The notes under the pieces were generated by a model that made no database searches, was not told the DNA's origin, and saw only the letters and a program-made list of their open reading frames with translations. Both the position numbers and the translations under genes were made by a program. Source: Candidatus Aminicenantes bacterium (GTDB lineage Bacteria > Acidobacteriota > Aminicenantia > UBA2199). From it: a stretch of DNA of 62,968 nucleotides. Below, piece after piece: positions 30,906-56,244 of the stretch. Within the stretch, counting starts at the first letter, position 1. Every line of letters begins with the position of its first letter. The stretch lies in contig DSBM01000141.1 of NCBI GenBank assembly GCA_011049425.1, positions 1 to 62,968 on the forward strand. Reading direction: 5' to 3'.

Positions 30906-31051
30906 CGATCTCTTGTGTTTCGTGTGTGTTAGCACACATTGGTGATAGGCGAGAGTCTGTGGGGATAAGCACCCGGAGGGCATTCTCCTTCAGCCTTCCC
31001 CTTTTTTCAAATCAGAAGAACTTCCCAACCCACACAAAATGGAAGAGAACT
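30906..31051. mobile_element. MITE-like element remnant, copy A (146 bp)
   Basis: A short element bounded by imperfect inverted repeats. The left end (from 30906) reads GATCTCTT..TTTCGTGTG; the right end read on the minus strand reads GTTCTCTTCCATTTTGTGTG. Both halves are homologous to the larger copy B (53132-53491, opposite orientation): A 31031-31050 equals the reverse complement of 53133-53152 over 20 bp, and the left half matches B's right half (shared CACATTGGTGAT and similar blocks). A lacks about 210 internal bases of B. The ends resemble ISL3-type termini (GGYTCTyT), but this is a guess. No target-site duplication is visible. A TGTGTG-TTAG-CACACA hairpin lies near the left end. Confidence 0.62.
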
Positions 31052-32145
31052 TAAAAACGGATATAAAAACGGATATACTTGATTCTGTTCTCAGTCTCGG
31101 TTACCATTTGAACCAATTGAATCCGAAAAGCACAAATCCCAGACAGCTCGTTTTATTGAGATTTGCCGCCTGGCTCATATTCGGACTGGTATGCTTCCTG
31201 TTGCTGGATCGGCTCATGTTTCTGGGCGTACGCGAATCCGCGTTTCACTGGTATCGTCAGCATGAGAGCGAACAGGATCCCCTGCTGAAAAATTTGCGTC
31301 GCGATTACTACGATATGCTGATTATGGGTTCCTCACGCAGCTATAAAGGGTTGTTGCCGATCCACTTTTATGATATTTTGAATCGAAAACCCCTTCAAAT
31401 CAGTCTCAAAGGCAAGTACCCCAAATACAATTATCATTTTTACTCACGTTTTCGACGCCTATCCAAACCTCCCGATCTGGTTATTTACGGAGTCGATTAT
31501 CATATTTTCTGTATTCACTCATGGAACCTGCTTTTGCAGGACTTGAACCTGGATGGTGCGATCGAGCGTTTTCCCCTGCCACAAAAATCTGATCAGGGCT
31601 TTGTCAACGAAATTTCCTGGTTGGTGCAGGGAAAACCACAAATCGAGCGTTTTTTTCAGGACATGATCTCAAATCATTCGGGATCAGTTTCTCAAACACA
31701 AGCCATATCCACCTATCTCGGTCAGCAGGAAAGCAATGTGCGCGTTCACCGTCCGGCGCGTTTTCAGCGAATTCCCTATGCATCCTTTCCCGGCATTGAA
31801 GGCGAATACCTGATCCGCTTGCTCAGTTTGTTGCAGGAAGATGGTGTGCGGGTTTACATGGTGATCCTGCCGGATTACATTGGTACCCATCAAACGCTTC
31901 AGGGCAAAGAACGATTTTATCAGGATATCCACAATTTGTGCGATCGTTTCAGTCAGGTGACCTGTATGAATTTTCACGAGCAGAGCGCGTTCGAAATGGA
32001 ACGCGCGGATTATTTTGCCGACGGGGGGTGGGGGAGTGGAAACAGTCACTTGTCCGCAAGTGGAGCCCGAAAGCTGGCGGAACTCATCTGTGAGCGCATT
32101 GCAGAAGAATCAGGCACGAGCAAACCCGGAATGGTGACGCGATGA
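31039..32145 (+). CDS. SGNH-hydrolase-like membrane protein of unknown function
   Basis: 368 residues with one membrane segment (FAAWLIFGLVCFLLLDRLMFLG, about 39-60), then a domain starting DMLIMGSSRSYKGLLPIHFYDIL: GSSRS is the block I pattern of SGNH/DltD-like proteins, and later GSGNSHLSASGARKLAELI contains the D/S-x-x-H-like block near the C-terminus. A role in cell-surface acyl transfer or esterase activity is inference. The ATG at 31039 lies inside mobile-element copy A and lacks a ribosome site, so the true N-terminus is uncertain. The gene overlaps the SMUG1-type gene by 4 bp. Confidence 0.68.
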   Translation: MEENLKTDIKTDILDSVLSLGYHLNQLNPKSTNPRQLVLLRFAAWLIFGLVCFLLLDRLMFLGVRESAFHWYRQHESEQDPLLKNLRRDYYDMLIMGSSRSYKGLLPIHFYDILNRKPLQISLKGKYPKYNYHFYSRFRRLSKPPDLVIYGVDYHIFCIHSWNLLLQDLNLDGAIERFPLPQKSDQGFVNEISWLVQGKPQIERFFQDMISNHSGSVSQTQAISTYLGQQESNVRVHRPARFQRIPYASFPGIEGEYLIRLLSLLQEDGVRVYMVILPDYIGTHQTLQGKERFYQDIHNLCDRFSQVTCMNFHEQSAFEMERADYFADGGWGSGNSHLSASGARKLAELICERIAEESGTSKPGMVTR

Positions 32146-53022: not shown

Positions 53023-53131
53023 CACAACATGGCCGATCAATTTCATTAAAAATGACGTTTCTGCACAATCCCGCGTTGGTATTGGCGCGCACTGAAGTCT
53101 GTTCAAAAAGCCCATAAAGCTGTTTTTTTTT

Positions 53132-53491
53132 GGTTCTCTTCCATTTTGTGTGAGTTTAAAGGTTATTCCAATTTGAAAAAATATAGAGGCTCCAGGAGAG
53201 TACCCTTCCGGGCACAAAGCATCGCTCACCACTTCGGTCCAGACCCATTGCGGTCTTTTTGCGTATTTAGCCGACCACGGCGGTTGTTCGGGATGTGACC
53301 GCGGCCGGCTTTCGTCCTCGATGAATACCCCTCAGCCGACCATCCTGTCTCAGACCATGGGTCCCCGGAACCTACGTTTGCGTTCGCTTATGCTGTATGC
53401 CCTGCGGGTATGTATGCCCTATGGGTACTCATCACCACAGCTTCTTGTCAATCACCAATGTGAGTTTACCCATACAGAACCAGGGAGAACC
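53132..53491. mobile_element. MITE-like element remnant, copy B (360 bp)
   Basis: Terminal inverted repeats: the left end reads GGTTCTCTTCCATTTTGTGT and the right end, read on the minus strand, GGTTCTCCCTGGTTCTGTAT. Flanks are T-rich (TTTTTTTT before, TTGTTTTT after), seven of eight matching, compatible with an 8-bp target duplication. The reverse complement is homologous at both ends to copy A (30906-31051). The interior holds a 2 x 17 bp tandem repeat (53394-53427) and a hairpin AGACC/GGTCT (53241-53256) followed by T5. No transposase frame was recognised. It is a non-autonomous or decayed element, perhaps ISL3-like from the GGTTCTC ends. Confidence 0.62.
53394..53427 (+). repeat. Tandem duplication, 2 x 17 bp
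   Basis: TGTATGCCCTGCGGGTA (53394-53410) followed at once by TGTATGCCCTATGGGTA (53411-53427), 15 of 17 identical. Copy A has only one related ACCC..AGGG unit, so recombination between such units may have produced its internal deletion. Confidence 0.75.
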
Positions 53492-53521
53492 TTGTTTTTG
53501 AACCTGAACCCATGCTATGGT
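53492..53521 (+). promoter_or_regulatory. Promoter of the marR-type gene
   Basis: TTGTTT (53492-53497), 18 bp, TATGGT (53516-53521) with TG one base before the -10. The -35 begins immediately after the end of element copy B, and the first operator overlaps the -10. Confidence 0.42.
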
Positions 53522-56025: not shown

Positions 56026-56115
56026 GGAGGGATGGCAGAGCGGTCGAATGCGGCGGTCTTGAAAACCGTTGGCCTTTAACGAGGCCCGTGGGTTCGAATC
56101 CTACTCCCTCCGCCA
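56026..56115 (+). tRNA. tRNA-Ser(TGA)
   Basis: Acceptor GGAGGGA pairs with TCCCTCC; the D-arm, the anticodon loop CTTGAAA (anticodon TGA, reading UCA), a long variable arm typical of tRNA-Ser and the T-arm GTGGGTTCGAATCC are present. The discriminator is G, and CCA is encoded (56113-56115). The 3' portion, from the T-loop through CCA and 9 more bases, is duplicated 120 bp downstream. Confidence 0.96.
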
Positions 56116-56124
56116 TTCGAACCC
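56097..56124 (+). repeat. Direct repeat, first copy (tRNA-Ser 3' end, attachment-site-like)
   Basis: 28 bp identical to 56217-56244. It covers part of the T-arm, the acceptor 3' strand, CCA and nine bases beyond. The last nine bases (TTCGAACCC) are the reverse complement of 56090-56098, giving an inverted repeat around the tRNA 3' end. Confidence 0.85.
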
Positions 56125-56216: not shown

Positions 56217-56244
56217 AATCCTACTCCCTCCGCCATTCGAACCC
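56217..56244 (+). repeat. Direct repeat, second copy (tRNA-Ser 3' end)
   Basis: Identical to 56097-56124, exactly 120 bp away. The interval between the copies has no gene. The pattern resembles duplicated attachment sites left by an integrative element that has since been lost, or a slipped duplication. Confidence 0.85.

Follow-up and report, generated by a model that had tools for sequence, protein, structure and literature searches.

The two short repeats examined here, copies A and B, are very probably old, worn, non-autonomous MITEs of the ISL3 type, the longer of which carries a structured core. Both lie in what we call the window, the whole 62,968-nucleotide stretch of Aminicenantes DNA that was analysed. 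Membership in ISL3-type MITEs is by itself routine, of a kind already known. The core, an imperfect hairpin of ~200 nt with conserved internal loops, is a conserved structured element in its own right, belongs to one Aminicenantes family and is apparently undescribed. We lean, by a little, towards regarding it as a new class of structured element, whether RNA or invertible DNA hairpin: one that sits at fixed intergenic sites in either orientation in sister species and that, in the genus of the window, an ISL3 MITE took up and multiplied to tens of copies.

Copies A and B and their transposon family

The first-pass annotation had described A and B as homologous elements sharing both ends, and direct reading agrees: positions 31031-31050 of A equal the reverse complement of 53133-53152 of B in 20/20 bases, CACATTGGTGAT is common to the other halves, and imperfect inverted repeats starting GGTTCTC bound both copies at both ends (A: 5' CGATCTCTTGTGTTTCGTGTGTG and, as reverse complement, 3' AGTTCTCTTCCATTTTGTGTGGG; B: 5' GGTTCTCCCTGGTTCTGTATGGG and 3' GGTTCTCTTCCATTTTGTGTGAG). 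The repeat search of the window pairs the same places as I1 and I2. Their homology goes beyond chance: aligned locally, A and the reverse complement of B score 68, while the best of 500 dinucleotide shuffles reaches 27 (mean 16.8, s.d. 2.3). The features of both copies are collected in Table 1.

Table 1. Features of the two MITE copies, in window coordinates.
Feature	Position	Strand	Remarks
Copy A, short-form ISL3-type MITE, degenerate	30906..31051	+	146 bp; both ends fit the family; without core; duplication lost (3/8)
Left terminal repeat of A (LE type)	30906..30930	+	4 mismatches to GGWTCTMTTNCRTTTTGTGTGGGTW
Right terminal repeat of A (RE type)	31027..31051	-	1 mismatch; contains the ATG (31039) of the ensuing 368-aa ORF
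Copy B, long-form ISL3-type MITE	53132..53491	-	360 bp; LE at the high end
Left terminal repeat of B (LE type, worn)	53467..53491	-	
Right terminal repeat of B (RE type)	53132..53156	+	1 mismatch
~200-nt structured core of B (putatively captured)	53200..53412	-	closing stem TACCC..GGGTA / GGGCATA..TATGCCC; model R1, 213 bits
Target duplication of B, low side	53124..53131	.	8 bp, TTTTTTTT; 7/8 match with high side
Target duplication of B, high side	53492..53499	.	8 bp, TTGTTTTT

Two further observations concern the surroundings. The 368-aa ORF that follows A (31039-32145) begins inside A's right end (ATGGAAGAGAAC), which may supply its start codon; the ORF has no match in Pfam. Beyond B, a tRNA lies at 56026-56112, and 28 nt including its 3' end (56097-56124) are repeated exactly 120 bp downstream, at 56217-56244, in a manner resembling an attachment site.

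The family is much larger than these two copies. A BLAST search with B returned 47 matches in the assembly to which the window belongs (2.62 Mb in 171 contigs; all copy counts derive from searches of it), and the 25-bp end pattern GGWTCTMTTNCRTTTTGTGTGGGTW occurs there at 101 places with at most three mismatches, compared with none for the reversed pattern in the same assembly. The prospect that no further copies would be found and that scores would stay at the level of shuffled sequence is clearly contradicted. In many cases a copy lies at the end of a contig because the assembly broke there on the repeat, and we therefore estimate that the true copy number is probably ~50, about half of the end count. 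The ends are of two types, LE (GGATCTATTACGTTTTGTGTGGGTAAAT) and RE (GGTTCTCTTCCATTTTGTGTGGGTTTGG), which are opposed as imperfect inverted repeats, and A, B and the rest of the family are multicopy, short and without a transposase.

Family ends are present in 25 of the 119 genomes searched, and in relatives of the organism they bound three elements of 1.33 kb (L117, L118 and L119), each with one ORF of 416-420 aa. The two ORFs scanned, those of L117 and L119, are full ISL3 transposases, with the domains Zn_ribbon_ISL3, HTH_Tnp_ISL3 and DDE_Tnp_ISL3 (E about 5e-70) and 342 bits against NF033550 transpos_ISL3 (cut-off 180); the ORF of L118 is nearly identical to that of L117. Exact 8-bp duplications flank L117 (TTTTAATT) and L118 (AGTTTAAT), and no direct 8-bp duplication was found at L119. 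Because the ends of A and B match those of intact ISL3 elements of other Aminicenantes, we assign both to the ISL3-type MITEs; the earlier reading as decayed, ISL3-related MITEs is thereby borne out by intact elements of relatives with equal 25-bp ends and, in two of three, exact 8-bp duplications. A search for a full autonomous element in the window's own genome, whose metagenome assembly is fragmented, gave no intact ISL3 transposase with family ends; its ISL3 remains are just two decayed transposase fragments at contig edges, without matching ends. The same ISL3-type ends were also seen in Auribacterota and Thermodesulfovibrionales MAGs (L128, L129 and L156), which suggests transfer of these ends between phyla.

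Alignment of the complete copies separates short forms of 143-152 bp, among them A, from long forms of 326-365 bp, among them B, with one copy of intermediate size (248 bp). The long form equals the short form plus an insert of ~200 nt between AGTACCC and GGGTACT, and is far commoner, accounting for most copies. A had been said to lack its middle; the middle is indeed absent from A, but it is itself a separate conserved structured element. The chances are even that the A-type short form arose from the long form by an internal deletion between the AGGG direct repeats. The converse order makes the short form original, with the core inserted later into the central palindrome AGTACCC-GGGTACT. Both junctions fit, since short forms read AGTACCCAGAGGGTACT and long forms hold the core exactly between the arms; the great predominance of long forms favours deletion, and we found no evidence that separates the two orders.

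A conserved structured core in five genera

The insert folds better than its own shuffles (z -5.8). A covariance model built from 19 core copies of the window's genus (R1) found, outside that genus, full-length cores in seven genomes of one sister genus (best E 1.7e-15). A second model (R2), built from 14 sister-genus copies only, which were aligned by sequence alone and then folded, recovered the MITE cores of the window's genome (E 1.5e-16), including that of B at 53203-53411 (E 1.6e-11), as well as copies in three further genera. The R2 matches fall in 17 genomes, all of one family and comprising five genera with that of the window; there were none in 108 other members of the class, nor did a set of 396 genomes taken from the phylum give any match beyond the family. 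No MITE ends surround the cores of the four sister genera, and one core of the genus mate (G001 C14) is also without clear MITE ends.

Compensatory changes across genera exceed the controls, as a structured element should display. In the 14 sister-genus copies, 44 of 70 pairs carry such changes. The figure rises to 63 of 70 with 40 copies, whose alignment was fitted to the model and hence is biased towards it, which the 14-copy sequence-only alignment is not. Over the 40 copies 764 cells are changed on both sides, compared with 240 +/- 12 after shuffling and at most 172 after sliding, which is over four times any slid control; the covariation score is 0.649 vs 0.172. The internal loops GAACG-AAACGGAGG / CCGGAGTGGTGAACG are near-invariant across genera, and the core hairpin reads ACTGTTTGAG..CGAGTTGG.

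At the gathering score, the covariance models of Rfam 15 gave no family for the window, B or the sister-genus loci, the hits being chance ones apart from tRNA. The core resembles the structured RNAs of that collection in its ~200 nt, heavy covariation and conserved internal loops, and matches no family among them. A 5S rRNA ancestry, prompted by the string CATCCCGAAC, receives no support from Rfam. A phage origin was likewise rejected, with 17 IMG/VR motif matches that are at chance level by our own estimate and in which the covariance model found no full-length core. A search of the open-licence literature gave no relevant work on noncoding RNA in Aminicenantes, and a single paper in which the ISL3 family and MITEs appear side by side.

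In a sister genus, cores occupy three intergenic sites that are shared between species. The first lies between genes for an RluD-like pseudouridine synthase and an ArsR-like regulator, the second beside a dnaJ-like gene (start MKDYYEILGV; all named from sequence), and there is a third. At each of the three, the core stands in one orientation in some species and in the opposite one in others. At the first site, two cores are 90% identical after one is reverse-complemented, and their flanks are 88-89% identical in the same orientation. Strict inversion of the core in place, by way of its arms, was set aside: at two of the sites the adjoining flanks do not align cleanly, so independent reinsertion may be the cause instead, and with the nearest flank bases aligning badly no clean inversion breakpoints emerged.

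In one sister-genus genome (G003, L289-L298), most of ten cores lie inside a larger palindromic repeat with inverted ends GGCTTTCGCCATCATCC / GGATGATGGCGAAAGCC; the MITE is therefore not the only type of repeat that carries the core. Elsewhere (L277, L283 and L247), a second, partial core (CGGAGTGGTGAGCG) adjoins the full one in its right flank, separated from it by a short AAAAGTGA-like repeat.

Is the core an RNA or a folded single-stranded DNA? We take it to be most likely an RNA. The internal loops and the core hairpin would permit tandem G-A pairs, which we read as a hint of RNA. G-U pairs number 78 vs 47 A-C mismatches among 2435 cells, and because this excess is only modest, the count does not separate the two. 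Somewhat doubtful, though a serious contender, is the reading that the core is a folded single-stranded DNA (REP-like, attC-like or some other hairpin substrate) that a recombinase of its own spreads, with covariation arising from the constraint on a DNA hairpin or from template-switch repair of a palindrome. The scarcity of G-U pairs would agree with this, as would the varying orientation at the three shared sites and the dispersal of the core, with several to ten copies in each genome, of which some lie at contig ends. Against it speak the near-invariance of the loops across genera and the better fold of one strand in 14/14 copies, a strand signal that is weak overall. A link to REP/RAYT systems was rejected, with Y1 transposases in 18 of the 19 genomes tested, irrespective of whether these have a core, and no core beside any of the 20 fetched Y1 (REP-type) loci. 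Integron attC sites have terminal RYYYAAC/GTTRRRY boxes and a linked integrase, whereas the conserved motifs of the core lie in internal loops and not at its ends.

Target duplications and octamer arrays

Young copies in the window's genome are flanked by exact 8-bp duplications. Among 12 complete copies the duplication is exact in four (C41, C10, C14 and C165) and matches at 7/8 in two more (B and C144); several older copies, like A, retain no recognisable one. The duplicated octamer is AAAAGTTG/CAACTTTT at C41, C10 and C165, and TTTACTTT at C14. The octamer AAAAGTTG/CAACTTTT precedes family ends in register in 35 of 100 cases exactly and in 52 of 100 with at most one mismatch, compared with a background over window positions of 0.005% and 0.1%, respectively. 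It is the preferred insertion target of the family.

Arrays of three or more units, (RARAGTTG)3, give 37 matches in the window's genome and 46 in its single genus mate, and one match in the other 117 genomes. At L202-L230 such arrays run on into GAGAGGGAAGAAGT and palindromes such as GGGGCGGTTCGCGAACCGCCCC; octamer array, GAGAGGGAAGAAGT and palindromes together are a second composite intergenic repeat of the genus. Because many arrays are without a MITE and belong to this other composite repeat (array-GAGAGGGAAGAAGT), we read them as a pre-existing preferred target. It is unlikely that the MITE itself made the arrays, each insertion followed by imprecise excision adding one 8-bp unit. The unit length equals the duplication length, and, but for that one match, arrays occur in no genomes other than the two of the genus; however, many have no adjacent MITE and stand among other palindromes, and units differ inside a single array. 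As for the resemblance of A and B being accidental, or due to two unrelated decayed insertion sequences, this is scarcely credible, since nothing but the degeneracy of A favours it and both the alignment score, 68 against at most 27 in the shuffles, and the ~100 ends in the genome contradict it.

Proposed mechanism and relation to known systems

An ISL3 transposase acting in trans would cut the MITEs at their 25-bp ends, and insertion would duplicate 8 bp, favouring the octamer AAAAGTTG. We infer the mobilising enzyme because the genome's own assembly has no intact ISL3 transposase bearing these ends. A MITE would have captured the structured core and then amplified it in the window's genus, such that A would be a worn short form without the core and B a long form carrying it.

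For the fosB ISL3-like transposon, inverted repeats of 25 bp and 8-bp duplications that are AT-rich are reported (PMC5559704). Like ISL3-family insertion sequences (Pfam DDE_Tnp_ISL3, NCBIfam NF033550), the family of A and B has an AT-rich 8-bp target duplication, and its 25-bp ends are those of the autonomous Aminicenantes ISL3 elements; A and B, in contrast, have no transposase and measure 146 and 360 bp, and their family prefers a specific octamer. Known bacterial MITEs include Correia elements and TIMEs (PMC4133298), and a MITE of Porphyromonas gingivalis contains a minisatellite (PMC4596501). These are likewise short and non-coding, and their terminal inverted repeats belong to a known family of transposons, but the parent of A and B is ISL3, and what lies inside is a structured element conserved in its own right, not a remnant or a minisatellite. 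The heptamer STRRs of cyanobacteria are dispersed short tandem repeats. The TAACTGA direct repeats of Beggiatoaceae are dispersed short tandem repeats too (PMC4679880). The octamer arrays share with both an intergenic position and a unit of 7-8 bp; they differ in that the 8-bp unit has the length of the MITE duplication and serves as the insertion site of the MITE.

Here a transposon seems to have acquired a structured element that is itself conserved. Because four sister genera have the fold without these transposon ends and the window's genus has it inside a MITE, its capture and spread can be traced by genome comparison. If the core is a DNA, it is a hairpin that stands either way round at fixed sites next to conserved genes. 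If it is an RNA, it represents a new RNA family, and tens of MITE copies could alter many transcripts at once.
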